This document shows positions 4,262 through 59,244 of a DNA stretch of 64,000 nt, piece after piece. Location: NCBI GenBank assembly GCA_003136315.1, contig PLDW01000518.1, positions 1-64,000 on the forward strand, given 5' to 3'. The translations under genes and the position numbers were made by a program. The notes under the pieces are model-generated. The model was not told the DNA's origin and made no database searches. It was given only the letters and a program-made list of their open reading frames with translations. Position 1 is the first letter of the stretch, and each line of letters begins with the position of its first letter. The stretch comes from Gemmataceae bacterium (GTDB lineage: Bacteria > Planctomycetota > Planctomycetia > Gemmatales > Gemmataceae).

Positions 4262-4534
4262 ATGCTGATAGCTTGCGTCGGAGCCGCATCAAGCCAGGGG
4301 CTCGCCGTTCTCCAACCGGAGCGCGATGATACACTGTCACTGGTTCATCAGTGGATCCAAGATCGCCCACGACGGGTCGGATTCTGGGTAGTCCTCGGTG
4401 ACACGGACGCCCGATCCGTCCGAGCGTTGTTACTCGACGGTGCCCGAATGGAGGCGATGCTCCTGCTCGACCGATGCGCGAAAGACCTGGGACAGATCCT
4501 CCCTGGAGACCTTCGCCCGATCCACCCCCACTGA
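4262..4534 (+). CDS. Small hypothetical protein upstream of kptA
   Basis: The 90-aa ORF starts at an ATG preceded by GGGTAGGT and ends 32 nt before the kptA start, so the two could be co-transcribed. Codon choice looks coding (mostly C or G at third positions in Leu, Val, Asp and Arg codons). The N-terminus is mildly hydrophobic (MLIACVGAASSQGLAVL) and the rest is soluble-looking. I do not recognise a domain. It could be chance coding potential in GC-rich DNA. Confidence 0.45.
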   Translation: MLIACVGAASSQGLAVLQPERDDTLSLVHQWIQDRPRRVGFWVVLGDTDARSVRALLLDGARMEAMLLLDRCAKDLGQILPGDLRPIHPH

Positions 4535-4566
4535 CCCACTGCCTCTCGTCGCAGAAAGGGCCTGAC

Positions 4567-5166
4567 GTGGAACCCTTCATCGACCCGACCCGGTTACTCC
4601 GGACCCTGGCGTACGCCCTCCGACACAACCCCAGACAGTTCGGCGTTGCCCTCGACGAAGACGGGTTCGCCGACATCGACGAGCTCGTCATTGGCATCCG
4701 CTTCAGCAGCTACGATTGGGCTCTCCTCGACCGCCTCATCCTGGAGGCCGCGCTGCTCACGTCAAGCCCTGACCGGTTTGAGTGCCGGGACGGCCGAATC
4801 CGGGCGCGATACGGCCACACCATCCGACTCGCCTCACCCGGCGACAGGCTTACTCCGCCCGAAATCCTCTTCCACGGCACCCCCACTGCCGCCCTCCCGA
4901 TCATCACCCGTGACGGACTGAGGCCGATGAACCGGGCCTTCGTCCACCTGACAGCAAGCCTGGACTACGCCGCCCAGGTTGCCACATCCAAAGGCGGTGG
5001 TGTGGTCCTCCCCATTCGAGCAAAGGAAGCGAGCGACGCGGGCACCGAGTTCTTTCAGGCGAACCCACATGTCTGGCTCGTCCGGGAGTTGTCCCACCAG
5101 TTCATCAACCCGGTTGATCCCGCCACCGGTGTCTGTGAGAACACCGGAACCCCTGGGGCTTCCTGA
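4567..5166 (+). CDS. kptA: RNA 2'-phosphotransferase, KptA/Tpt1 family
   Basis: KptA/Tpt1 enzymes move a 2'-phosphate from RNA to NAD+, forming ADP-ribose 1''-2'' cyclic phosphate. In eukaryotes this finishes tRNA splicing, while the bacterial role is unsettled. The conserved tetrad is visible: R19-H20 in ALRHNP, an Arg in the RARYGHT motif (about 79-81), LFHGT, and the late Arg in NRAFVHL. The ORF track extends 31 codons upstream, but GTG 4567 has a good AGAAAGGG site 6 nt upstream and gives 199 aa, close to the family norm. It stands 3' of a small unknown ORF and upstream of a convergent toxin gene. Confidence 0.9.
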   Translation: MEPFIDPTRLLRTLAYALRHNPRQFGVALDEDGFADIDELVIGIRFSSYDWALLDRLILEAALLTSSPDRFECRDGRIRARYGHTIRLASPGDRLTPPEILFHGTPTAALPIITRDGLRPMNRAFVHLTASLDYAAQVATSKGGGVVLPIRAKEASDAGTEFFQANPHVWLVRELSHQFINPVDPATGVCENTGTPGAS

Positions 5167-5196: not shown

Positions 5197-5526
5197 TCAC
5201 TCGTCGTCCGCGAACTCATCCGGTCCGAGCAACTCCTGTCGGCCGTGCCGAATCCGGAGGATGTAGACTGTTTGCTTCCGAACTTCGAATAGGATGCGAT
5301 AGACGTGTCGCCGCTTGCCGTGAAGGAGTTGACGAAGGACACCGTCATACCACTCATCCTCCGGGGCGAGTGGGCATCGCTCCGGGTGATGTTGCAGCGA
5401 TTCAAACGCGGCCCGAAGCCGTTGATACCACCGGAGGGCAACGGGGCGAGAATTCCTCGACAGGAATTCGAACGTCTCCTCGATCTCGGCCAGTGCGGGG
5501 GAGGTGATCTCGACCGTGAAACTCAC
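5197..5526 (-). CDS. ParE/RelE-superfamily toxin
   Basis: A 109-aa type II toxin. The N-terminus (VEITSPALAEIEETFEFL) and the C-terminal RRHVYRILFEVRKQTVYILRIRHGR strand region are characteristic of the ParE/RelE fold. Proteins of this family either inhibit gyrase (ParE) or cleave mRNA on the ribosome (RelE), and the sequence alone does not decide which. Its ATG overlaps the antitoxin stop region by 4 nt, so the pair is translationally coupled. The motif suggests ParE rather than HigB. Confidence 0.86.
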   Translation of the reverse strand: MSFTVEITSPALAEIEETFEFLSRNSRPVALRWYQRLRAAFESLQHHPERCPLAPEDEWYDGVLRQLLHGKRRHVYRILFEVRKQTVYILRIRHGRQELLGPDEFADDE

Positions 5527-5822
5527 TTCTTCTTTCCTGTGAGCTTGTACTTCTTCGCGAGTGCGTCCAGGGCTTCGAGTGCCGGGAGGGTGCGGCCAGC
5601 GTCAATTTCTGCCTTGCCCTCGCGAAGGAACGCGAGCATCTCCGCCTGCTCGGCCAGTTCCACCAACCGCTGGTAGGCTGCCGCATCCTGTACAACCATT
5701 TCGGCCTTCCCATTTACCGTCAGGACAACCGGGCGGCCGGTCTTCTTGAGTTGCTCGGCCACCTTCGCCGTGTCTCGTTTGAATGTGGACAACGACTGGA
5801 TGTCGTTGGCGATGTCGAGCAT
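5523..5822 (-). CDS. Phd/YefM-type antitoxin
   Basis: A 99-aa antitoxin paired with the downstream ParE-like toxin. The N-terminal DNA-binding Phd fold shows SLSTFKRDTAKVAEQLKKTGRPVVLTVNGKAE followed by VVQDAAAYQRL. The Lys-rich C-terminal half would bind the toxin. I chose ATG 5822 and not the ORF-track start at 5912 because AGGAGGAGG precedes it by 7 nt. Autoregulation by the antitoxin or the toxin-antitoxin complex is expected for the family, and the AT-rich stretch 5835-5865 is the likely promoter/operator. Confidence 0.88.
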   Translation of the reverse strand: MLDIANDIQSLSTFKRDTAKVAEQLKKTGRPVVLTVNGKAEMVVQDAAAYQRLVELAEQAEMLAFLREGKAEIDAGRTLPALEALDALAKKYKLTGKKK

Positions 5823-6210
5823 GGTGCGCCCTCCTCCTATTGCTAAATTTGCACTCAATTGAATGCTACCAGTCTTTGCCACTCTCGGCAACCGGAAACG
5901 CCCCATCGTCACGGCGTTGAGGCATGCTCGGGGAATTGTCCTGCCGATGGTCCTTCGCAGGCATGGCGGTCGCGGGCCTATAGAGTGGCCTCAAAATCCG
6001 GGTCAGCCCCCACCTCGTCGCGTCTTGGCCACGTTCCGCCGCCGTGGTAGTGCCGGCCATATCGTAACTTTTTGTTCTTTTTCGACTCAAACTGGGCAGT
6101 GGAAACAGCCGGCCCACCGCGACTCTCCGTACGGGGGACCGCGGGAGGCCGGTGGTGTAATCCGGTTATTCACAGGTTCTTGTCAGACCCGACCAAGCGA
6201 GGAACTGAGC
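5823..6210. other. Divergent spacer between toxin-antitoxin operon and DUF932 gene
   Basis: About 390 bp with no supported gene. The plus-strand ORF reading from 5863 into the DUF932 gene has no protein-like character before residue M at 6211. Confidence 0.55.
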
Positions 6211-7242
6211 ATGAAGGCCCTGACCCGCGCGCGCAACGAGTTGTTTCGCCGCGCTCCCGACGAGTCGTTCCCCGATCTGACCTCACTCGTCGCCCACTGC
6301 CGGACCGCGAAAGCCGAGTCCGTCGACCGCTGGCATCCCCCTCGGGCCATCACACCGGCCCTGGGAGATGGGCGGCTGGACTTGTCTCTCGGCTCGGACG
6401 GCGATTTCACGCTCAATGACTGGAGTTTCAGTCAACTCTGCTCCCTGGCCCACGTGAACAAGGAGACCGTCACCCGGCTCACTCCAGGGACGGCTGCGCA
6501 GGTGTTTCGAGAGACGCTCCCAGGAGGGAACAAGCCACTCCAGGTATTCACTCGTGGGCAGGCCGTCCGGTCGGTCCACGGAGTCGGCTACACCCGACTT
6601 CACAATGCCGACCTGCTCGCTGCGGTCCAGGAATTCGTCACCGATTTCACCCCACCGCAGAAGGCTGCGTCGGGTGGCACAGGGCTCTACTGCGGGGAGC
6701 AAGACCTCTTCGCTTTCCTCATCGACCCAACAGGGTGGGCGGAGATCGACGGGGAGGCGTTCGCTCCTGGGTTCTTCGTCTGGAACTCCGAAGTCGGGAA
6801 GCGATCCCTCGGCGTCCAGTCGTTCTGGTTCCAGGCGGTCTGTGCCAACCACATCGTGTGGGACGCGGTCGAGGTTGTGGAGTTCACACGCAAGCACACG
6901 GCCAGTGTCGGCGATTCACTCGGCGAGATCCGGCAGATTATCGAACGGCTCGTCCAGCAGCGTGATGCTCGCCGAGATGGGTTTGTCACCACGATCCGTA
7001 AGGCGATGGGCACCACTCTGGGGACAGACACCGAGGAGGCACTCAAGGAACTGACCAAGCACGGTTTCCCGAAGGGGTTGGCCAAGGAGGCGTTGACGCT
7101 CGCCGAACAGAGGGGACGGTTCACGATCTTCGCTGTGGTGGACGCCCTCACGCGACTCTCCCAACAATTCGTGTACGCCGGAGAACGTGCCGAGGCCGAC
7201 ATGAAGGCGGCCCGGCTCTTTGAGTTGGCCCTCGCCGCTTGA
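6211..7242 (+). CDS. DUF932 phage/plasmid-like protein
   Basis: The 343-aa protein matches the DUF932 family, often annotated phage/plasmid-like, whose biochemical role is unknown. Visible family features are the ITPALGDGRLDL and LNDWSF strands, the central FVWNSEVGKRSLGVQSFWF and CANHIVWDA motif, and a helical C-terminus. ATG 6211 with GAGGA upstream is preferred to the ORF-track start at 5863. It heads a three-gene plus-strand cassette with the 93-aa and 145-aa genes. From base 7036 on, this cassette is duplicated at 49985-51481, where only the last 68 codons of this gene survive. DUF932 genes are frequent on plasmids and in mobile regions, which fits the duplication. Confidence 0.88.
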   Translation: MKALTRARNELFRRAPDESFPDLTSLVAHCRTAKAESVDRWHPPRAITPALGDGRLDLSLGSDGDFTLNDWSFSQLCSLAHVNKETVTRLTPGTAAQVFRETLPGGNKPLQVFTRGQAVRSVHGVGYTRLHNADLLAAVQEFVTDFTPPQKAASGGTGLYCGEQDLFAFLIDPTGWAEIDGEAFAPGFFVWNSEVGKRSLGVQSFWFQAVCANHIVWDAVEVVEFTRKHTASVGDSLGEIRQIIERLVQQRDARRDGFVTTIRKAMGTTLGTDTEEALKELTKHGFPKGLAKEALTLAEQRGRFTIFAVVDALTRLSQQFVYAGERAEADMKAARLFELALAA

Positions 7243-7556
7243 GCATCATGCTCCCGCGTGAGGGGAAGAGAAGCATCACATCGAGAGGTTTGCGTTGGTT
7301 GCACCACCAAGCCTCTCACGAACCGCCCACTATGGTGGCGAACCGCCTTGTATCTTCTCCCGACCGTGACCAGCGCAGAGGTTGCCCTCAACGGTTCCAT
7401 GTTCGGCCCACTGGTCGCGCAGGGGCCATGCGGACGCGGGGAAAGGGCTCGATCCGTCTCGAACGGGGAGTTGCTACCGCTCGTCGCGCCGGCGATCCGA
7501 GGGGCCGACAATCACCCCATCAGTCCCGGGCTGTAACCCCGAACCGAGGAGACCTC

Positions 7557-7838
7557 ATGACCCCTTCGGAACCAATCTCCGTCCCGCTTGGCAGCATCGT
7601 GGCGACCCCCGCCGTGCTGGAGACGCTTACGCGAGCCGACATTGTCACCGCCCTTCGCCGGCACGCGGCCAGTGACTGGGGCGATGTGACACCCGACGAC
7701 CGCAACGCCAACGACGAGGCGCTCCGGTCCGGCGACCGGCTGCTCTCGGTTTACTCCTCCGCTACCGGCACCAAGTTCTGGGTGCTCACCGAGGCCGACC
7801 GCTCCTCGACTACCGTGCTCCTACCTGACGATTACTGA
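7557..7838 (+). CDS. Small conserved cassette protein, 93 aa
   Basis: The 93-aa protein belongs to a widespread small family found with DUF932 genes on plasmids and in accessory regions. Databases sometimes mislabel it as a restriction subunit. Features are VPLGSIVATPAVLE at the N-terminus, a DWGDV core, and the C-terminal KFWVLTEADRSSTTVLLPDDY. The start is supported by GAGGAG 6 nt before ATG. The 314-bp leader upstream includes the hairpin-prone GAGAGGTTTG/CAAGCCTCTC pair. A near-identical copy lies at 50506-50787. Function is unknown. Confidence 0.87.
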   Translation: MTPSEPISVPLGSIVATPAVLETLTRADIVTALRRHAASDWGDVTPDDRNANDEALRSGDRLLSVYSSATGTKFWVLTEADRSSTTVLLPDDY

Positions 7839-7990
7839 CACCGGTTTTTATTCGGGATTATTGCACCACCGGGCCTCACTCATACAGGCGCTGAACATCG
7901 AGTAGACGAACCCATCCACTCCCCGGCGATCCCGAGGGGCGGACGACGCGAATCAGGTTTTCGCTTTCTGCCCCTCTCAGGAGGAAGCAC

Positions 7991-8428
7991 GTGAAAATCA
8001 TCAGTTCGTTCAGGGAGCTTGAACCGTTTGGGCTCATCATCCTGACGGGCGAGGCGTGTGGCCTTGGCTACCGGATTCTGTTCGACGTGACGGCCGCGGG
8101 GAAGAAGGTCGTCGAGAAGTGCTTCGGAATTCCGAACATGACGTTCGCCGAAGCTTGGAACCGCGGGACAGCGGAGACACCGCATGTCGGCTCGATCATG
8201 CTCAGCCAGGAGATGCTTGTCCCGATTGCCGTCTTCGCGTGCCTGGAGAACGGCTGCACCGAAGCCTACCGAATGGACGACTTCGTAATCGGCATCGAGC
8301 TGGGTGATCCGGCTGACAAGGCAGTCCAGATGGAGCAACTCTACCGCGTCCAGCGGGTCCGGCGGTTTCGTTACGCGGGCACGGCTGGCGACCGAAACGT
8401 TCACCAGATGACCGGACGGATTGAATGA
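7991..8428 (+). CDS. Hypothetical cassette protein, 145 aa
   Basis: The 145-aa protein starts at GTG 7991 behind AGGAGGAAG, a strong site that fixes the start. It looks soluble and compact, with no motif I can name. The middle holds GFGIPNMTF-like and SIMLSQEMLVPIAVFACLENG segments. Its last codons lie inside the duplicated block, and the second copy (51007-51444) is also intact. Conservation of both copies at the protein level suggests it is or was under selection. It could be a partner of the DUF932 protein, but that is only inferred from co-duplication. Confidence 0.8.
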   Translation: MKIISSFRELEPFGLIILTGEACGLGYRILFDVTAAGKKVVEKCFGIPNMTFAEAWNRGTAETPHVGSIMLSQEMLVPIAVFACLENGCTEAYRMDDFVIGIELGDPADKAVQMEQLYRVQRVRRFRYAGTAGDRNVHQMTGRIE

Positions 8429-8465
8429 GGTTGTCCAGAGGTTCTGCGTCGCCCGGAACCTCTCA

Positions 8466-8640
8466 CGGGCGCGGACCACGAAAGATGTCGACCTGTTGGT
8501 CAAGCACATCGTCGGGCCGATGTCGGCTGTACTCCGCGCGCAGCTTCCGGAGGCTGCCGACGTCGGACTCGGCGACCACCTAGTATTCCGCCTCCGGACA
8601 CCGAACTGCGAACTGACGAACGCGCCACAAGGCGGCGCTC
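8466..8640 (+). pseudogene. Fragment of an AbiEii-like nucleotidyltransferase
   Basis: Immediately right of the cassette edge, the plus-strand frame reads ARTTKDVDLLVKHIV, then AADVGLGDHLVFRL, then ELTNAPQGGA. This resembles the part of AbiEii-family nucleotidyltransferases around the DxD metal motif (K-D-V-D). The start is lost to the cassette and the reading ends after about 55 codons. It appears to be a relic of a type IV toxin gene truncated by cassette insertion. Confidence 0.55.
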
Positions 8641-8821
8641 CCAGCGACCTGCAAGACGCGCAGCCCTCATGCTCCGCCGAACACGCTCACAGCGCCCTCG
8701 GCGACGTGGGAGGCATACATCACAGGATTGGCGGAGGAAATGGGATCTCAACCCGCGACTACCTCGCGGCGTTCGCTAACCTCAATCGCCTTTGGACAGA
8801 CCATTCTCTGGGGGGAGCGGC

Positions 8822-9178
8822 TCAGACCGAAGAAATTTGAACGCGGAAACGTAAGCCGGTCCCGTGAGGTGCTACGGATTCGACTACGCTGTCCAATAAT
8901 TCTGGAGCTGTGAGAAGGTCTCGTAAATTTTCAGTTTGCTCCGAAAATCGATACGAACCAACTATCTCGCCACAAAGTGTGTAGATTTGATAAGCGTGCG
9001 CCTGGCTTTCAGATAAACGGTGGAGTAGTACACGGTCGCCCGCGACTAGAGGGATAGCAAGCGTCGTGGAGGTCGCGAAAGTGACTGACATATCACGTGC
9101 TGACCGAACGCCCGCACTGACCTGTCGGCTCAAACCAGTGATCGCCTCCCGAATCATCGCGAGGTCAGAGGCGTTCAT
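8822..9178 (-). CDS. Hypothetical protein, last gene of a minus-strand operon
   Basis: The 118-aa ORF overlaps the end of the upstream gene by 14 nt. GGAGG stands 8 nt before ATG 9178, which I prefer to the track start at 9193. The N-terminus looks helical (SDLAMIREAITGLSRQVSAGV) and the rest is beta-rich. No known motif was seen. Overlap with the upstream gene and a consistent strand suggest co-transcription with the 9165-9407 and 9409-10062 genes. Confidence 0.6.
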   Translation of the reverse strand: MNASDLAMIREAITGLSRQVSAGVRSARDMSVTFATSTTLAIPLVAGDRVLLHRLSESQAHAYQIYTLCGEIVGSYRFSEQTENLRDLLTAPELLDSVVESVAPHGTGLRFRVQISSV

Positions 9179-49118: not shown

Positions 49119-49983
49119 TTACCGGAACAGGTTGGTGCGGGCCAGGTCGATGACCTCGTCGCCCCGGCCGTTGAGTACGGCTCTGATCATGTACAGGCTG
49201 AACCCCACCGCCTGCGCCACATCGATTGTCGGCGGCATTGCCAGTTCCTGACGGTTCACAACCACGTCCACCAGTGCCGGACCCGGGTGGGCCAGGGCTT
49301 GTGCGATCATTGGCTTCACCTGCTCCGAGTCTTCCACCCGCAGCCCAAGCAACCCGGCCGCCTCAGCGAGCCTCGCACAATTCGGGTTGTGCAGATCGGT
49401 CGCGAAGTCGAGGATCCTCGCCGCCTTCATCTCCAGTTCCACGAACCCCAGCGACCCGTTGTTGAAAACGACCAACTTCACCGGAAGATCGAGTTGTCGG
49501 AGCGACAAGAGGTCGCCCAGGAGCATAGCCAGACCGCCGTCCCCGGAGAGAGTCGACTTGCCTTCCGGAGTATGCGAACTGGGCTCCAATCGCTTGCAGT
49601 AGGGCACTGGCCATCGACCCATGAGTGAATGATCCTACTGAACGCTGCTTTCCGTTCATTTGCAGATGGCGGGCAGCCCAGATCGTGGGCGTGCCGACAT
49701 CGCAGGTAAAAACGGCATTATCCGCGGCTGCCTCATTGAACATCCTGGCGACATATTGAAGGTGAATCGGTTTGCGCCCGGGCGTACCCGTTGCCAGATC
49801 GTTCAGTTCTTGACACGCTTTCTAGTAGTGACGGATCGAGTCATCGAGATGGGATGCATCCGTTTTTTCGGTCAACGACGGCAGCACTGCCCGGATCGTT
49901 TCCCCGATGTCGCCTACGAGGCCGAGGTTGACCCGAGTCCGACGGCCGATTTGTTCGCCACGTATATCGACCTGGATGATCTT
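49119..49983 (-). pseudogene. poxB: Pyruvate dehydrogenase (quinone)/PoxB-like relic, 3' half
   Basis: Starting right at the cassette edge, the minus strand reads KIIQVDIRGEQIGRRT, ETIRAVLPSLTEKTDASHLDD, an in-frame TAG, then PGRKPIHLQYVARMFNE, SVGSFTHGSMASAL, and, after a 1-nt frameshift near 49560, LSGDGGLAMLLGDLL and FNNGSLGFVELEMKAA. The GDGG...NN segment is the thiamine-diphosphate binding motif. This is the C-terminal half of a PoxB-type enzyme, which oxidises pyruvate to acetate at the membrane. The 5' half was not found on the other side of the cassette, so insertion came with deletion. Confidence 0.88.
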
Positions 49984-49984
49984 A

Positions 49985-50191
49985 GAGGCACTCAAGGAAC
50001 TGACCAAGCACGGGTTCCTGAAGGGGCTGGCGAAGGAGGCGTTGGCCTTTACCGAACAGAAGGGACGGTTCACGATCTTCGCTGTGGTGGACGCCCTGAC
50101 GCGACTCTCCCAACAATTCGTGTACGCCGGAGAGCGTGCCGAGGCCGACATGAAAGCGGCCCGGCTCTTTGAGCTGGTCCCCGCCGCTTGA
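49985..50191 (+). pseudogene. DUF932 3' fragment
   Basis: The last 68 codons of the DUF932 gene (EALKELTKHGFLKGLAKEAL to FELVPAA) in the same frame as the intact copy at 6211-7242, without a start or the conserved core. It cannot encode a functional DUF932 protein. Confidence 0.9.
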
Positions 50192-50505
50192 GCATCGTGC
50201 TCCCGAGTGGGAGAAAGTGATGCATCACATCGAGAGGTTTGCGTCGCTTGCACCACCAAGCCTCTCACCAGACGCCCACTATGGTGGCGAACCGCCTTGT
50301 AGCTCCCCCCCGACCGTGACCGACGAAGCGTCGCCCTCAACGGTTCCATGTTCGGCCTGGTGGTCGCACAGGGGCCATGCTGACGCGGGAAAAGGGCTCG
50401 ATCCGTCTCGGACGGGGAGTTGCTCCCGCTCGTCGCGCCGGCGATCAGAGGGGCCGGCAATCACCCTTTCAGTCCCGAGCCGTAACCCCGAACCGAGGAG
50501 ACCTC

Positions 50506-50787
50506 ATGACCCCTTCGGAACGAATCTCCGTCCCGCTCGGCAGCATCGTGGCGACCCCTGCCGTGCTGGAGGCACTTACGCGGGCCGACATCGTCACCGC
50601 CCTTCGCCGGCACGCGGTCGGTGACTGGGGCGATGTGACGCCTGACGACCGCAACGCCAACGACGAGGCGCTCCGGTCCGGCGACCGGCTGCTCTCGGTT
50701 TACTCCTCCGCTACCGGCACCAAGTTCTGGGTGCTCACCGAAGCCGACCGCTCCTCGACTACCGTGCTCCTACCTGACGATTACTGA
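50506..50787 (+). CDS. Small conserved cassette protein, 93 aa, copy 2
   Basis: Near-identical to the product of 7557-7838, differing at about four residues (for example R for P at position 6 and AVGDW for AASDW). The ribosome-binding site GAGGAG and the 314-bp leader are also conserved. It has no intact DUF932 partner here, so any function requiring that protein would depend on copy 1. The family role is unknown. Confidence 0.85.
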   Translation: MTPSERISVPLGSIVATPAVLEALTRADIVTALRRHAVGDWGDVTPDDRNANDEALRSGDRLLSVYSSATGTKFWVLTEADRSSTTVLLPDDY

Positions 50788-51006
50788 CACCGGTTTTTCT
50801 TCGGGATTATTGCACCACCGGGCCTCACTCATACAGGTGCTGAACCATGATGCCCACGTTCCTCAACCAGTGGACCGGGCAAAGCATCGGGGCGAAGGTG
50901 TGGTAGATCCAGATCGAGTAGACGAACCCATCCACTCCCCGGCGATCCCGAGGGGCGGACGACGCGAATCAGGTTTTCGCTTCCTGCCCCTCTCAGGAGG
51001 AAGCAC

Positions 51007-51444
51007 GTGAAAATCATCAATTCGTTCAGAGAGCTTGAACCGTTTGGGCTCATCATCCTGACGGGCGAGGCGTGTGGCCTTGGCTACCGGATTCTGTTCG
51101 ACGTGACGGCCGCGGGGAAGAAGGTCGTCGAGAAGTGCTTCGGAATTCCGAACATGACGTTCGCCGAAGCTTGGAACCGCGGGACAGCGGAGACACCGCA
51201 TGTCGGCTCGATCATGCTCAGCCAGGAGATGCTTGTCCCGATTGCCGTCTTCGCGTGCCTGGAGAACGGCTGCACCGAAGCCTACCGAATGGACGACTTC
51301 GTAATCGGCATCGAGCCGGGTGATCCGGCTGACAAGGCAGTCCAGATGGAGCAACTCTACCGCGTCCAGCGGGTCCGGCGGTTTCGTTACTCGGGCACTG
51401 CTGGCGACCGAACCGTTCACCAGATGACCGGTCGGGTTGAATAA
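51007..51444 (+). CDS. Hypothetical cassette protein, 145 aa, copy 2
   Basis: Near-identical to the product of 7991-8428, with about five substitutions (N for S at 5, P for L in IEPGD, SGTAGDRT for AGTAGDRN, V for I in GRVE). It starts at GTG 51007 behind AGGAGGAAG. The 67-bp segment unique to this copy lies about 95 bp upstream of the start, so only copy 2 may retain the original leader. Confidence 0.8.
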   Translation: MKIINSFRELEPFGLIILTGEACGLGYRILFDVTAAGKKVVEKCFGIPNMTFAEAWNRGTAETPHVGSIMLSQEMLVPIAVFACLENGCTEAYRMDDFVIGIEPGDPADKAVQMEQLYRVQRVRRFRYSGTAGDRTVHQMTGRVE

Positions 51445-51572
51445 GGTTGTCCAGAGGTTCTGCGTCGCCCGGAACCTCTCAGAGTATGCAAGAGAGGGGC
51501 GGGATGTTAACCCAGCGGTGGTTGGTCAAGTTCATTTTGACCTGTTCCACAGTCGGATGGTAAGCTGAATGC

Positions 51573-51848
51573 ATGGCGACTGACATCACCCAAACCCTAA
51601 TTCCACAGACACTCGACCTAAGTGGGCTCCCTGAGTCCGTGGTTCGGGACATTCGGCGCCTCGTCGAGACACTCCGCGTGAAACTTGGGAGTGCTGAGGC
51701 TATACCTCCCACGACGGAACGCCGGCCGCTTAGGGGCATCTTCACTGAACCGGGGCTTTCCGTCCCCAGGGAACTAATCGACGAAGCCCAGCGGGAAGTG
51801 TGGGCCGGGTTTCCGCGTGACTTCCCCAAACACCACAAGGGGTCATGA
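51573..51848 (+). CDS. Probable antitoxin of a PIN-toxin pair
   Basis: The 91-aa ORF overlaps the start of a PIN-domain gene by ATGA, which is the usual toxin-antitoxin coupling. The N-terminal part (LSGLPESVVRDIRRLVETLR) looks like a short dimerisation or DNA-binding helix pair, and the C-terminus (PRELIDEAQREVWAGFPRDF) like a toxin-binding tail. It is not AbrB-like, unlike the antitoxins of the two other PIN modules nearby. The antitoxin role is inferred from position. Confidence 0.72.
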   Translation: MATDITQTLIPQTLDLSGLPESVVRDIRRLVETLRVKLGSAEAIPPTTERRPLRGIFTEPGLSVPRELIDEAQREVWAGFPRDFPKHHKGS

Positions 51849-52261
51849 GCGACGTTCTCGCGGACACGCACGCTGTCTTGTGGTATCTCTTTGACCCCGC
51901 TCGCCTGTCGCCCCCTGCCGACGTAGCACTTACCAGTGCAACTCTATTGGGACAGCTTTTCATCTCGACCATCACCCTTGTCGAGGTGAATTACCTGACC
52001 GGAAAAAAGAGCTTTCCCTACACCTGGGCGTTACCCCGGCTCTTTGCCCTTCTGGCTGACCCTACTCAGCCGCTTAACATTCTCCCACTTGACCTGGCCG
52101 TTGTTTTGGCAATGGACCAGGTGCCGAGAGACGAAGTCCCTGACATGCCCGACCGCATTGTTGCGGCAACTGCTGTCGCCCATCGTCTTCCACTTGTCTC
52201 GGCCGATACAGATATTCACGACTCAGTAAGTCTAAAATCTCTAGCCCAAGTCATCTGGTAA
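51845..52261 (+). CDS. vapC: PIN-domain toxin (VapC family)
   Basis: The 138-aa protein has the PIN acidic residues: D7 in VLADTHAVLWYL, Glu in TLVEVNYL, and the C-terminal DRIVAATAVAHRLPLVSADTDI with two Asp. VapC toxins are Mg-dependent RNases that cut initiator tRNA or rRNA. The partner antitoxin overlaps upstream. The module lies 90 bp from the right edge of the DUF932 cassette and 700 bp from the Argonaute operon. Confidence 0.88.
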   Translation: MSDVLADTHAVLWYLFDPARLSPPADVALTSATLLGQLFISTITLVEVNYLTGKKSFPYTWALPRLFALLADPTQPLNILPLDLAVVLAMDQVPRDEVPDMPDRIVAATAVAHRLPLVSADTDIHDSVSLKSLAQVIW

Positions 52262-52816: not shown

Positions 52817-52963
52817 ATGGTCAAGCCACTTGGCAAATGTGCTCTCTGCAAACCGCGGCGTGACCTCGCCACACGACCTATCGATGCTGCTTGCATTCCC
52901 AAAGCCGTTGGTGCTCGGGTACACTTGGTTGATTGCCCTGTGACGCCGCCGAGAATGCCATGA
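52817..52963 (+). CDS. 48-aa Cys-rich ORF overlapping the Argonaute start (below ORF-track cutoff)
   Basis: ATG 52817 opens a 48-codon frame whose TGA (52961-52963) overlaps the Argonaute ATG (52960) as ATGA. The N-terminus KCALCKPRRDL and later IPKAV resemble the start of CALC..SHxIPKAV zinc-finger/HNH-like proteins, but the usual His is absent and the frame is short. It may be a small coupled zinc-binding protein, a leader peptide, or a relic. There is no clear ribosome-binding site; the GATAAT at 52803 would fit near-leaderless expression. Confidence 0.42.
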   Translation: MVKPLGKCALCKPRRDLATRPIDAACIPKAVGARVHLVDCPVTPPRMP

Positions 52964-55293
52964 GCAATGCTGTTCCCTTCCAGACAGGCCACGTGCTCAA
53001 CGTCGCACCGATGGAACTGGCCGGTGGCCCGGTCCAGGCGGAACGCCTGCGATTCATTGATGCCGACTGGCTCCGAGAGCTGCACATCCACACCCGCGAA
53101 ACGCATGTGGTTCGGCGCGAGGGTGAGACCGTCGTTTGTGTCCCCCTGAAGTCAGACGCCACTTCACTCGGTGGGGCAACCGAGATTATCGATTTAAATG
53201 AAAATCTTTACCTGTCTGCGAGTCTGGTACGGAACGCCCTTCTCGCCTACCTAAACCGCATCAAGCGGACCGTCCTCCACCTCCGCCCCGTCACCTTTTT
53301 GGCAAGTGGTGATAACGATGACTACCTCGCAGCGGCTCTGCCCCAAGGAGTGACGAACCAAGGTCAGTTACGGGTGAGTCCGGTCTTCGAACTCGATGTG
53401 CGAGTCATCGCCCCGGAGGACCAGCCCGCTTACGTGGCGATCATTTTTGACGGGTTCGTCTCTCGCCGCATTCTCGCGAGTTGTGCGGACCTGATCCGAG
53501 GTGGGGTCGATGTCCGCGGCGTGTACGTAAAGCGTATCGCCGAAACGAGCGACCAGCGGCTTGCTCCGAAGCTCGAAACCGTCGGTCAAGTCGCGTCAGT
53601 TGACGGCGACACTCTGGCGCTCGCAGATCACCGAGAATCGACACCGACGATTCTGGCGAACGAAGCCTACCCGCAGGCTCGCGGTGACTTCTTCGCCCAC
53701 TGCGTCGAGGTTCTCTTCCCACGGCATGCGAGCACGATACTCGCGAGCATCGAACAGGCGATGGCCAACTTTCGGCAAGGAGGACAACTGCTCGATCGGC
53801 TCAGTTCGGTGCGCGAGCACATTGGAAAGCAGAAGCTTCCCCTCCCACAGGGCGTTACCTGCACGGTCGATTATTTCCTGGCGAGCGTTGCCAAGGACGA
53901 CCCGCACCCGTTTCCGAAAATACACCGCGCGAAGAGTGCGGTGTACCTCTTCGACCCAGCTACGACGAGCAAGGCGTGCGAGTGGCCGGTTGACGCTGGC
54001 ATCACCAGATACGGCCCCTATTCAAGCCGCAGCTTCACCCCCAATCGGCCGAGGGTGTGCGTGCTATGCCAGAAAGCCAAAAAAGGGCAGGTCGAGCAGT
54101 TCCTCGTGAAATTCAAGGACGGCGTGGCGGCCGGGGGAGACGGCATCCAGCCCTTTGAAAATGGGTTCCTCGACAAGTATCACCTCGGAGGGATCGACTT
54201 CGAGTTCTTCGTCACCGAGAACAACTCGGCCGCTGCCTACCGAAAGGCGGCCCGCAACGCGATCATGAGCATTGGGCCGGCGGGGCAGAAATGGGACCTC
54301 TGCTTTGTCCAAATCGAAGAGCGGTTCCGGAACCTTCCGAATGCCGAAAATCCGTACCTGGTTTGCAAGTCCGAGCTGCTGACACACCAGATTCCAGTCC
54401 AGGCGTTCACCGGGGAGACGATGGAACTGTCCACCTACTCCCTTCAGTTCGCACTGAACAACTTCGCTCTCGCCTGTTACGCGAAGATGAACGGGACGCC
54501 GTGGCTTCTGAAATCGGACCAACCGCTCTTGCAGGAGATGGTGATCGGCCTTGGCAGTGCTCGGATCGGTGACTCTCGACTGGGGTCAGGGCAGCGGGTC
54601 GTGGGAATCACGACAGTGTTCACGGGCGATGGGAATTACTGCCTCTCAAACCTCTCCCGAGCCGCATCGTTCGAGACGTACCGGGAGGAACTGCTCGACA
54701 CCCTGCGTCTCGCTGTGCGGCAGGTGCGGACGGATACGAACTGGCAGAGTGCTCGCCCGGTCCGACTCGTGTTTCATGCCTTCAAGCCGTTCCGGGATGC
54801 CGAGATCACGGCCGTGAAGCAGGTCATGGCGGACCTCGGCGAGTTTAACGCCGAATTCGCATTCGTCCACGTTGTCGAAGACCATCCGTACCGGATCTTC
54901 GACCTCGACCAGGGCGGGAAGCCGGACAAGAGGACTCGCTCGACTAAAGGAGTTCTGGGTCCTAACCGTGGCCTCTTCATGCTCCTCTCGGAGCGTGAGG
55001 TGCTTCTTACCCTCACTGGCTTCAAGGAGGTGAAGCGGCCAGAGGACGGAGTACCCCGGCCGGTACTGCTACGGATCCACGAGGATTCCACCTTCACCGA
55101 TCCCGTCTACTTGGCCCGCCAGGTGTACGCCTTCGCCGGCCACTCGTGGCAGGGCTTCTTTCCATGCGATATGCCGGTTACGATCGAGTACTCCGCGATG
55201 ATCGCAAGGCTCCTCGGGAATCTCGCCACCTTACCTGGGTGGAACCCGTCGGCGCTCATCGGCAACATCGGCTGGACGAGGTGGTTTCTGTGA
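52960..55293 (+). CDS. Long prokaryotic Argonaute, catalytically inactive (long-B/RsAgo-like)
   Basis: A 777-aa pAgo from ATG 52960. Long Argonautes use a small nucleic-acid guide to find complementary DNA or RNA. The MID domain has Y466 and K470 (PYLVCK), Q481 (IPVQ) and K509 (YAKMNG), the residue set that holds a guide 5'-phosphate. The PIWI domain follows with IGLGSARIGDSRLG (529-), RVVGITTVFTGDGNY, RLVFHAFKPF, KGVLGPNRGL and the C-terminal RWFL. The DEDX nuclease residues are absent: the first Asp is G532, and the RLVFHAFKPF and TIEYSAMIARLLG strands lack Asp. It should therefore bind but not cut. An N/PAZ region fills about residues 1-400. It overlaps the next gene by GTGA. Confidence 0.88.
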   Translation: MSNAVPFQTGHVLNVAPMELAGGPVQAERLRFIDADWLRELHIHTRETHVVRREGETVVCVPLKSDATSLGGATEIIDLNENLYLSASLVRNALLAYLNRIKRTVLHLRPVTFLASGDNDDYLAAALPQGVTNQGQLRVSPVFELDVRVIAPEDQPAYVAIIFDGFVSRRILASCADLIRGGVDVRGVYVKRIAETSDQRLAPKLETVGQVASVDGDTLALADHRESTPTILANEAYPQARGDFFAHCVEVLFPRHASTILASIEQAMANFRQGGQLLDRLSSVREHIGKQKLPLPQGVTCTVDYFLASVAKDDPHPFPKIHRAKSAVYLFDPATTSKACEWPVDAGITRYGPYSSRSFTPNRPRVCVLCQKAKKGQVEQFLVKFKDGVAAGGDGIQPFENGFLDKYHLGGIDFEFFVTENNSAAAYRKAARNAIMSIGPAGQKWDLCFVQIEERFRNLPNAENPYLVCKSELLTHQIPVQAFTGETMELSTYSLQFALNNFALACYAKMNGTPWLLKSDQPLLQEMVIGLGSARIGDSRLGSGQRVVGITTVFTGDGNYCLSNLSRAASFETYREELLDTLRLAVRQVRTDTNWQSARPVRLVFHAFKPFRDAEITAVKQVMADLGEFNAEFAFVHVVEDHPYRIFDLDQGGKPDKRTRSTKGVLGPNRGLFMLLSEREVLLTLTGFKEVKRPEDGVPRPVLLRIHEDSTFTDPVYLARQVYAFAGHSWQGFFPCDMPVTIEYSAMIARLLGNLATLPGWNPSALIGNIGWTRWFL

Positions 55294-56585
55294 ACACCGG
55301 TCGCGAACGATTGCTCTCGGATTCCCGGATCGCCCTTGAACGGCAGATCCAGGCCACGGGGGACATTGATTTTGCGGACCGACTGTTTGCTGCTTGGTTG
55401 CTCGGAATTGACAAATTTTCATTCGATGACACGACTGAACTTAGCACACTCGTCGGCGAGCGAACTCGGAGCTATCGCGCGGTGGCAGCGCTTGGGTACG
55501 CTGCCCAGCGGACTAGCCCCGCGTGTCCTTTCCGCACAGAACTCTGTGAATCGCTCATATGGCTCAGCCAACGGCCAATGACCATCGTCAACACGATGGC
55601 CGGATTCGTTCTCGATCCGGTGGCGCTTCTGGGAATCGCAAACGGCGCTCGCTGCTCTGGTGATCCGGAAGTCGAAAAAGCGATATCAGGTTGGATGACT
55701 CGGGTTCTGGCGACCCGCGCGGGTCTGCCCATTGCTGACCTGTGGGAGCGATGCTTGATTGCCGCAGTCGGATTCCGGCTTCGACTGCCGAATACTCCAG
55801 AAGTACCCAGCACTCCGAAGGTCGCCGATTGCCGACTCGTCCTTCGAGCTAGGGGAGCGTTACCAGCAACACATGCTGCCGACAGCCACGCAGATGAAGC
55901 CAGTCTTCTCCCCCTGCTCCTAGACGACACCTCGGAGGATTTGGGTTTCACCCGTATGGTCATTCGCGCTGCGGCGTTCGATGTCTTGAAAAACGTTACA
56001 GTTGCCTCGGGCGTCGTCGGGGGACTGAACGCCGAAAAGGGACACTTGACGATAGTGGAAGGAGTAAAGGCCATGAAGAAGGTTTTTGTAAGCTACTCGT
56101 GGGACTCGGAGGAGCACCAGCAACGGGTTCGTCAATTGGTGGATGACCTCCGGGGATATGGGTTCGCGGCGACGATGGACCTCTACGAGCCGAACCCGCC
56201 TAAGGGCTTAGCCGCATGGATGCTCGAAAGCATCCGCAACTCGGATTTCGTGCTGGCGGTCATTACTGAGACCTACCGGAAGCGGTGCGAAGGTGAGGAG
56301 GAACAGGGTAAAGGCAACGGGGTGAAGTGGGAAACTGGGCTCATGATCCGCAAAATATACCAGGACGGGTTCGCAAACGAAAAGTTCATTCCCGTCATCC
56401 TGAACAAAAGCGACGCGAAGTCGATGCCAACTGTATTCCTCGGAAACGTTTACTATGACGTGTCGGACCCGGCTCGGCTTTTAGGACTCGTGCGGCTCAT
56501 CTCGGATCAACCAGAATACGTCCCGCCTCCGATTGGTCGCACGCCGGTGCTCCCGCCTCGCAACGCTGGACCCGGATCTGACTAG
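55290..56585 (+). CDS. SEFIR/TIR-like effector partner of the Argonaute
   Basis: The 431-aa protein starts at GTG 55290, overlapping the Argonaute stop by 4 nt (GTGA), so the two are translationally coupled. Residues 1-260 are mostly helical and match no domain I know. Residues 262-400 form a SEFIR domain, a TIR relative: KKVFVSYSWDSEEHQQRV, GYGFAATMDLYEP, NSDFVLAVITETY, and KWETGLMIRKIYQ with the likely catalytic Glu at E348. Bacterial SEFIR/TIR proteins act in antiphage defence, commonly by consuming NAD+. An ATG at 56073 preceded by GGAAGGAG could also start a free SEFIR domain. The N-terminal part probably contacts the Argonaute. Both points are inference. Confidence 0.85.
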   Translation: MNTGRERLLSDSRIALERQIQATGDIDFADRLFAAWLLGIDKFSFDDTTELSTLVGERTRSYRAVAALGYAAQRTSPACPFRTELCESLIWLSQRPMTIVNTMAGFVLDPVALLGIANGARCSGDPEVEKAISGWMTRVLATRAGLPIADLWERCLIAAVGFRLRLPNTPEVPSTPKVADCRLVLRARGALPATHAADSHADEASLLPLLLDDTSEDLGFTRMVIRAAAFDVLKNVTVASGVVGGLNAEKGHLTIVEGVKAMKKVFVSYSWDSEEHQQRVRQLVDDLRGYGFAATMDLYEPNPPKGLAAWMLESIRNSDFVLAVITETYRKRCEGEEEQGKGNGVKWETGLMIRKIYQDGFANEKFIPVILNKSDAKSMPTVFLGNVYYDVSDPARLLGLVRLISDQPEYVPPPIGRTPVLPPRNAGPGSD

Positions 56586-57972: not shown

Positions 57973-58087
57973 ATTTCGTTAGCACAGAATTATGAATATA
58001 TAACAGATTGGCAGACAGTGTCAAGAAAATGGAGTTCAGCCGGGGAGAGGAAGGTCTGCGAGGTTATCGCTGGGCTGGCAGATTGAG

Positions 58088-58135
58088 TTCCCCGATAAAT
58101 GTCACCATTTTCTCCCCGCTATTTGTCACCCTGAC
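58088..58135 (+). repeat. IS21-type end repeat, left orientation, copy 1
   Basis: TTCCCCGATAAATGTCACC, then CTATTTGTCACCCTGAC. It shares the bipartite ATAAATGTCACC...CTATTTGTCACC layout with the repeats at 58994-59211. No transposase genes are present. Confidence 0.7.
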
Positions 58136-58264
58136 AGACCTTCATTTTCAACGATTTTGTCAAATGGCAATTCAGAGATTGGATGGCGGCACTTCGCTCC
58201 CAGGGAGTGTCCTTCGACAAAACCTAGGGAGACGATGGGCGATTTTTGACTGCTTGGAGAATGG

Positions 58265-58522
58265 TTACTTCTTGGAACACGCCTCGCATCCTGCGGCATG
58301 CATCAACGTGGCTCCGTCCAGTTGGGTGAACAACAGATAGTCGTGCCCATCCTGGGCTCGAATAAGCCGAATGGATTGATAGTGCTCCACCTGCTTTGGG
58401 GCAACGTCGAGGAACTCGGAGGAGGCGGAGTTCGGTGCGGCTGGGGGCAGGCGATTGGCTGCGAAGCCACCCACTATCAGGACCGAGACGATCACGGCCG
58501 TCGCGATTATTAATCGGGTCAA
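58265..58522 (-). CDS. Small exported or membrane-anchored hypothetical protein
   Basis: The ORF encodes a hydrophobic N-terminus (TRLIIATAVIVSVLIVGGFAANRL) that is a signal anchor or signal peptide. A soluble part follows with HYQSIRLIRAQDGHDYLLFTQLDGATLMHAAGCEACSKK. The track starts at ATG 58528, but AAGGAG abuts that ATG directly. TTG 58522, six nt after AAGGAG, has normal spacing and is the likelier start, giving 85 aa. The gene is enclosed by IS21-type end repeats (58088 and 59044), so it may have travelled as cargo or be an inserted host gene. No family was recognised. Confidence 0.6.
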   Translation of the reverse strand: MTRLIIATAVIVSVLIVGGFAANRLPPAAPNSASSEFLDVAPKQVEHYQSIRLIRAQDGHDYLLFTQLDGATLMHAAGCEACSKK

Positions 58523-58993
58523 TTGCATCTCCTTGAGAACCGTTTCGGGTAGCGAAGTGCTACGCCCGTCAACCGCGTCCCGCGGGAGATGGCCGTAGCT
58601 TCTATTGCCGTCTACTCTGAGGAGATTGAAAATATCTGTTGGAAGATGTGCCGAAATAAAAACTCAATAGAACAGACTTGCATCTCCACTGAGTTATTCC
58701 CAGAATTAATATCCGCGTGCTAGAAATTGTTGAGTAATAGCTCATTAGTTCTGGCTGCTGTTGAGCAGACGGTTCCGCTGCTTCATCCATTCAAACCGAT
58801 CACAGAGCACAATCCGGCGAGCAGCCGTTCACGCGATGCCTAATCCCGATCAAAATACCGTCTTGTACTATTAATGCCGATGATTTAAACTGTTAAGTGA
58901 CTCGCTATTTGTCACTCTTTTTACCCTGGTAGTTGTCACTGCGCTTGAGTGACAGTCACCAAATCAAGGTCTTCGCTTCCTCCTGACGACCAA

Positions 58994-59044
58994 GGGTGAC
59001 AAATAGCAGGGAAAAAAGACTGTCATTTATCGGGGAAATTAACA
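58994..59044 (-). repeat. IS21-type end repeat, right orientation, copy 1
   Basis: GGGTGACAAATAGCAGGG, then TGTCATTTATCGGGGAAATTAACA. This is the complement of the left-type ends. Together with 58088-58135 it brackets about 960 bp. A partial subrepeat, GCTATTTGTCAC, lies near 58912. Confidence 0.75.
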
Positions 59045-59049
59045 AGAAG

Positions 59050-59211
59050 TGTTAATTTCCGCAGTAAATGTGACCATCTTCTCCTCACTATTTGTCACCC
59101 TGACGGCCCATACTGCCCAAAGGTTTGTCGAAGGGCAACGCCGAGAACGAAGTACCAACGGAGTGACAAATAGCAGGGAAAGAAAGGTGACATTTATCGG
59201 GGAAATTAACA
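59050..59211. mobile_element. 162-bp non-autonomous element with about 50-bp IS21-type inverted ends
   Basis: The left end TGTTAATTTCCGCAGTAAATGTGACC...CTATTTGTCACCC (59050-59104) and the complement of the right end TGTTAATTTCCCCGATAAATGTCACC...CTATTTGTCACT (59162-59211) align across about 50 bp with some mismatches. There is no coding capacity. It stands 5 bp from another right-type end, so two elements or deletion derivatives lie back to back. No clear target duplication was seen. Confidence 0.75.
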
Positions 59212-59244
59212 AGTTGGCTCGGTGCTCAGGTTTCATGGTAGCGC

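Follow-up and report, generated by a model that had tools for sequence, protein, structure and literature searches.

Complementary 5′ and 3′ stem-loops bracket plasmid-type DUF932, p97, p93 and p145 units in planctomycetes and may pair within the mRNA

The 64,000-nucleotide stretch of Gemmataceae DNA analysed here (contig PLDW01000518.1; "the window" denotes this whole stretch) carries a cassette of small genes twice, some 43 kb apart, which raises the question of whether a defined mobile unit was recently duplicated or whether some other structure gives the two blocks their limits (Table 1). End-to-end alignment confirmed that the blocks at 7036–8465 and 49985–51481 are collinear and that a 67-bp segment of copy 2 is their only net length difference, two 1-bp gaps cancelling each other. 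As originally predicted, the 93-aa (p93) and 145-aa (p145) genes are intact in both copies, and the DUF932 gene is whole in copy 1 only (start at 6211, 343 aa), copy 2 retaining residues 275–342. Divergence between the copies is mosaic, with ~92% identity in the left part and ~98% in the right: mismatches occupy 62 of 802 positions left of the p93 stop codon versus 12 of 627 right of it (Fisher test, P = 4e-7), and the two non-coding leaders repeat the left–right contrast (34/313 versus 3/152, P = 4e-4). Counts of synonymous and non-synonymous changes (Nei–Gojobori), proposed with the original prediction as a check, gave dS values between copies 1 and 2 of 0.20 for the DUF932 C-terminus, 0.11 for p93 and 0.03 for p145; over the copy comparisons the range was 0.11–0.20 for the DUF932 C-terminus and p93 (0.08 in one pair) and 0.03–0.06 for p145. 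Because dS is lower in p145 than in these two genes, the p145 part may have been either homogenised or copied later than the rest of the block. Since dN/dS between copies is mainly <0.25 (~0.5 in some p145 and DUF932 comparisons), the block genes are mostly maintained under selection. The predicted recent duplication is thus a true, non-chance duplication, but a single recent event is not supported, since dS differs between the left genes and p145.

Table 1 Positions in the window of the repeated block, its genes, its paired elements and its flanks
Feature	Position	Strand	Remark
ParE toxin/Phd antitoxin pair	5197–5822	−	common to copy 1 and third copy on C128
Leader stem-loop, DUF932 unit	6109–6152	+	CCGGCC...GGCCGG, into GGTGGTGTA at 6151
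DUF932-type gene	6211–7242	+	343 aa, intact; below Pfam and TIGRFAM curated cut-offs
Copy 1 of repeated block	7036–8465	+	DUF932 3′ end, p93, p145; block alignment
3′ stem-loop, DUF932 unit	7283–7317	+	loop includes TGCACCACC
p93 gene, copy 1	7557–7838	+	93 aa; plasmid-related small protein
3′ element after p93, copy 1	7862–7879	+	TGCACCACCGGGCCTC; local stem weak
p145-unit leader element, copy 1	7910–7949	+	GGACGACGC at 7941 replaces GGTGGTGCA; partly by eye
p145 gene, copy 1	7991–8428	+	145 aa, intact
p145-unit 3′ stem-loop, copy 1	8437–8463	+	variant loop GCGTCGCCC at 8446; repeat edge 8465 is the outer end
AbiEii gene remnant	8466–8840	+	right flank of copy 1; full version on C132
Decayed pyruvate oxidase/dehydrogenase (PoxB-like) gene	49119–49984	−	left flank of copy 2
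Copy 2 of repeated block	49985–51481	+	DUF932 truncated to residues 275–342; block alignment
3′ stem-loop of DUF932 remnant, copy 2	50232–50266	+	
p93 gene, copy 2	50506–50787	+	
3′ element after p93, copy 2	50811–50828	+	
67-bp segment	50846–50912	+	copy 2 only; absent from copies 1 and 3
p145-unit leader element, copy 2	50926–50965	+	GGACGACGC at 50957
p145 gene, copy 2	51007–51444	+	intact
p145-unit 3′ stem-loop, copy 2	51453–51479	+	GCGTCGCCC at 51462

The host genome (11.6 Mb in 524 contigs) holds the gene set of the block in about three copies. Searching it for further copies, as had been suggested, recovered a third that is split over two contig ends, contig C128 ending with DUF932 and p93 and contig C97 beginning with p145; these ends presumably form one single copy, broken at the p145 start codon by inverted insertion-sequence-like termini on both contig ends. 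The element that interrupts it has ends CAACTTGGTAACTACTGA and is hidden by the contig break (L011 end/L012 start). With the 67 bp missing from copy 1 as well as from copy 3, they are more simply read as an insertion in copy 2; a genome search found no other occurrence of the segment in the host. Copies 1 and 3 are homologous leftward to at least 5196, across the ParE/Phd pair, and the left edge of copy 2 (49985) falls inside DUF932, beside the decayed PoxB-like gene. On the right, copy 1 ends at 8465 against the AbiEii remnant, of which contig C132 carries a full version, and ~35–40 bp beyond this edge are common to copies 2 and 3. Since the left edges differ and copies 2 and 3 extend past the right edge of copy 1, the block is no unit with two fixed edges, and searches turned up neither direct repeats nor an associated recombinase. 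Of the mobile unit originally proposed, a mobile-derived origin stands, from the plasmid-borne relatives of p93 and DUF932, and the fixed unit with two defined edges does not. The best explanation of the block is a plasmid-derived DUF932/p93/p145 set that entered this planctomycete and is present in about three mosaic copies, copy 2 being truncated beside a decayed gene.

One edge nevertheless has structure: position 8465 is the outer base of the 3′ stem-loop of the 145-aa unit, and the "abrupt edge" becomes the boundary of a known structure. Homology also ends at the 3′ stem-loop edge in the locus pairs L152/L153, L152/L169 and L174/L175, though not in all pairs of loci, and this edge is either a genuine recombination boundary or merely the end of a conserved unit. 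In one complete genome (L172/L173), two DUF932 units that are 99.8% identical over 2.3 kb lie >4 Mb apart on the same chromosome, and one of them carries a 1.3-kb insertion between two homologous parts.

The genes themselves point towards plasmids. The intact DUF932 gene resembles the DUF932/TIGR03299 phage–plasmid proteins distantly, in their central domain, and differs from both families in scoring below their curated cut-offs (Pfam PF06067: 17.5 bits, E = 0.0037, cut-off 23 bits; NCBIfam TIGR03299: 19.1 bits, cut-off 110.7 bits); its match to phrog_1362 is better than that to PF06067 (E = 4e-13). Within the class, 47 of 298 genomes carry its subfamily, with up to 7 matches per genome, and relatives are borne on plasmids. 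A kinship with RAD52, seen in weak rows only (E = 0.6–1.8), was set aside; nothing significant emerged when the p145 and DUF932 models were compared with PDB structures, and a PDB sequence search found no match. For p145, a single-protein search of the contig set returned nothing and an alignment query was required to find relatives; the gene was found only in planctomycetes (5 of 99 relatives searched, host counted; 13 planctomycete contigs) and on one metagenomic viral-collection contig, and in no phage record. p93 matches no Pfam, PHROG or NCBIfam family and is found on 175 plasmids from many phyla. On two Isosphaeraceae plasmids, the p93 gene and a small upstream gene (in one case a p97 relative) share an operon with ParB, one planctomycete plasmid with a p93-type gene in a ParB operon is typed conjugative, and a Phycisphaera plasmid has p93 and p97 relatives near ArdC-like and RadC genes. 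The DUF932/p97/p93/p145 group looks like plasmid establishment or maintenance genes. The planctomycete plasmids L192, L193 and L206 carry p93/p97-like gene sets (ParB adjacent in two), and the leaders of L192 and L193 form other hairpins, with no GGTGGTG element. A KptA/Tpt1 RNA 2′-phosphotransferase lies near DUF932 in three genomes (window 4474–5166; L033 894–1526; L037 2445–3107).

The structure at the block edge belongs to a wider pattern, first spotted upon comparing the leaders of p145 and DUF932 relatives, where CCGGTGGTGCA lies upstream and its reverse complement in a downstream stem-loop. Across planctomycetes, a leader stem-loop ending in CCGGTGGTGCA sits 50–185 nt upstream of DUF932/p97/p93/p145 units, and a 3′ stem-loop with the loop TGCACCACCGG lies downstream of the same units. 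Presence, position and strand specificity were evident in a hold-out set of 29 DUF932 loci chosen solely for protein similarity, after the motif had been seen at p145 and DUF932 loci: GGTGGTG occurred within 180 nt upstream in 20 of 29 (shuffles 0.4, maximum 3), CACCACC, the wrong orientation, in none of the 29 upstream regions, and CACCACC within 900 nt downstream in 16 of 29 (shuffles 1.9, maximum 8). About one third of DUF932 loci are without the elements, as are the plasmid and viral-collection relatives. The resulting catalogue comprises 49 5′ and 52 3′ elements in one fixed orientation, and these bracket transcription units and not single genes (DUF932 alone; DUF932 with p97; p97 with p93; p145). 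When 30 DUF932 genomes were searched whole, the clear pattern matches fell at DUF932-group genes and the others resembled chance; a general 3′ hairpin pattern run over 392 genomes stayed at background level. Furthermore, a GGTAGA box is present in 12 of 38 cases, mostly 54–66 nt upstream of the 5′ motif (shuffles 0.2); it is promoter-like, and the leader would lie downstream of it. Our literature search found no description of units bracketed by complementary 5′ and 3′ hairpins. A group II intron (reverse transcriptase, maturase, HNH; Rfam Intron_gpII) sits between DUF932 and the 3′ stem-loop at L152 (3046–5262) and L153, which belong to two other Gemmataceae genomes; a 738-aa ORF within two bracketed units proved to encode the reverse transcriptase of a group II intron.

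Both elements fold better than shuffled sequence (z = −2.31 for the 5′ and −2.46 for the 3′ element, against −0.08 to −0.74 for neighbouring stretches). The opposite DNA strand, at z ≈ −2.0, folds almost equally well, so folding does not tell RNA apart from single-stranded DNA. The leader forms a bulged stem-loop, which has CCGG at its end and runs on as TGGTGCA; in an alignment and structure fitted by hand, the alignment being fitted to the structure, 82% of cells in its stem are paired compared to 35–50% when the alignment is slid (1 of 500 shuffles was as high), and the stem covaries, with double changes in 7 of 10 pairs. The 3′ stems vary by unit (GAGAGG/CCTCTC, AGGCCC/GGGCCT, TTGAGGTCCA/TGGACCTCAA, GAGAGATGC/GCATCTCTC) around a constant CACCACC loop. 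Rfam 15 recognised only a tRNA in the window, and only group II introns and one tRNA at 17 element-bearing loci, no family matching the elements. The elements resemble Rfam candidate structured leader motifs in their covarying structure upstream of genes of unknown function, and differ from them in matching no Rfam 15 family and in having a 3′ partner. A covariance model (R1), itself without a positive control and so uninformative here, found no match in the host genome, whose copies have diverged.

Complementarity between the two elements of a unit exceeds that between mismatched elements. Among 25 non-redundant units, own pairs form 3.92 pairs beyond the core compared to 2.98 for mismatched 5′ and 3′ elements (P = 0.0011); the excess persisted after clustering (P = 0.0007) and within families (P = 0.004 and 0.024), in a test that corrects for relatedness in part only, and in several units own pairing is no greater than with chance partners. 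The host p145 unit is the strongest single case of compensated 5′/3′ pairing. Its leader has GGACGACGC where GGTGGTGCA is usual, its 3′ loop has GCGTCGCCC where TGCACCACC is usual, and five of the six leader changes are compensated in the loop; eight of nine positions pair within the unit, against three of nine with the usual partner. Because the copies in the genome carry the same change, the variant counts as one lineage and not as several events.

We propose that the paired 5′ and 3′ UTR elements base-pair within the mRNA and regulate these plasmid-derived genes, a reading to which we give an even chance. The elements would be transcribed, pair in the cell and change regulation, the leader and 3′ stem-loops most likely both acting in the mRNA. 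The 3′ loop would pair with the leader and thereby compete against the hairpin that the leader forms by itself, and such pairing would close the message end to end and so alter translation or decay. As leader and loop sequences hardly vary from unit to unit, the 3′ loop of one unit could also target the leader of another. Counting against this mechanism, 5′/3′ pairing would face competition from a strong 3′ hairpin formed locally. The nearest known case is the icaR mRNA of Staphylococcus aureus, in which the 3′ UTR pairs with its own leader and can alter translation and decay (PMC3868564). The two share complementary sequences in leader and 3′ UTR, whose co-location in one transcript is assumed for the planctomycete units. 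Regulation of the icaR type works through a pairing that obstructs ribosome binding and generates an RNase III site. In contrast, icaR is a single mRNA in which a short C-rich motif faces the Shine–Dalgarno sequence (PMC3868564), and the stem-loop pairs described here are found repeatedly, at four gene families across planctomycetes, with the leader sequence tens of nt upstream of the start. Rather more tentatively, at somewhat under even confidence, the pairs may represent a new class of paired bacterial mRNA elements, with complementary near-universal loops, self-closing or inter-message pairing, a shared transferable regulatory code and occasional private codes such as that of the host p145 unit. 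End-to-end pairing of bacterial mRNAs has so far been described in isolated examples, icaR among them; if true, a covarying pair that recurs at four gene families would turn it into a general mechanism open to testing, with the element pair as a predictive marker for poorly understood plasmid-derived genes.

The elements might instead act separately, the leader as an RNA working alone or protein-bound and the 3′ hairpin as an intrinsic terminator or stability hairpin, their complementarity arising from one protein or small RNA that recognises both. We regard this as possible but rather unlikely: each hairpin is well supported by itself, a near-constant loop is expected for a trans factor and the 3′ hairpin is placed where a terminator would be, yet a T run seldom follows it, complementarity is higher in own pairs than in mismatched ones, and the compensated changes of the host p145 unit stand against independent action. 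An ordinary segmental duplication followed by decay, with nothing further, would make the truncation, the decayed flanking gene, the insertion-sequence interruption and the mosaic divergence all commonplace; it accounts for the two blocks but not for elements at unrelated genes in many genomes, and as a full account it is very improbable indeed.

Two further readings place the elements at the level of DNA, and these lose weight because target duplications are absent and homology passes the ends in several pairs. It is improbable that a mobile gene cassette is involved, with the elements as its terminal inverted repeats or as recombination sites in inverse orientation. In favour of this, the outer 5′ and 3′ sequences are inverted repeats of each other over as much as 18 bp, the order of the genes is variable, DUF932 reaches seven matches per genome and, in several pairs, inter-copy homology stops where the 3′ stem-loop ends; against this, the flanks carry no direct repeats and own flanks are no more alike than mismatched ones (P = 0.11), 5′ homology continues 40–95 bp beyond the element and other pairs exceed both ends, no recombinase or transposase with the same ends was seen in the loci examined, and the stems vary around constant loops. 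A transposon with terminal inverted repeats was rejected on the same flank comparison, target-site duplications not being found. Integron cassettes likewise consist of small genes in variable order, each with a folded element (attC) at its 3′ side; they differ in that the planctomycete ends are inverted, with arms GAGG(TT)...(A)CCTC, and no integrase was seen in the loci examined. The attC candidate was rejected on the inverted, not direct, orientation of the two ends, core sites being judged by eye. Less probable again is that the leader stem-loop is an Frpo-type single-stranded-DNA promoter for incoming conjugative DNA, the genes being former leading-region genes. Frpo/ssi promoters are folded elements upstream of plasmid establishment genes (PMC11541004), a likeness strengthened by the p93-type genes in ParB operons on planctomycete plasmids and by a conjugative plasmid on which p93 and p97 neighbour ArdC-like and RadC genes. 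However, those plasmid relatives are without the motif, the GGTAGA box, with its promoter-like character, precedes the hairpin and is not part of it, where an Frpo promoter has its −35 and −10 elements inside the folded strand, and the complementary 3′ partner, a point of difference from Frpo/ssi elements, is left unexplained.

Beyond the repeated blocks, the window holds several other loci. Between the copies (10577–46373) lie several very large PAS/GAF hybrid histidine kinases. Immediately right of copy 2 is a VapBC-like pair of a small gene and a PIN-domain gene (51573–52261), followed shortly by a class II prokaryotic Argonaute and then a SEFIR-domain/helical-REase partner (52933–56585); the Argonaute locus and the surrounding toxin–antitoxin pairs look like a defence island. 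Farther on, at 58083–59213, a family of short direct and inverted repeats with TTTGTCACC has an IS630-type transposase and a MazE/PIN pair close by.
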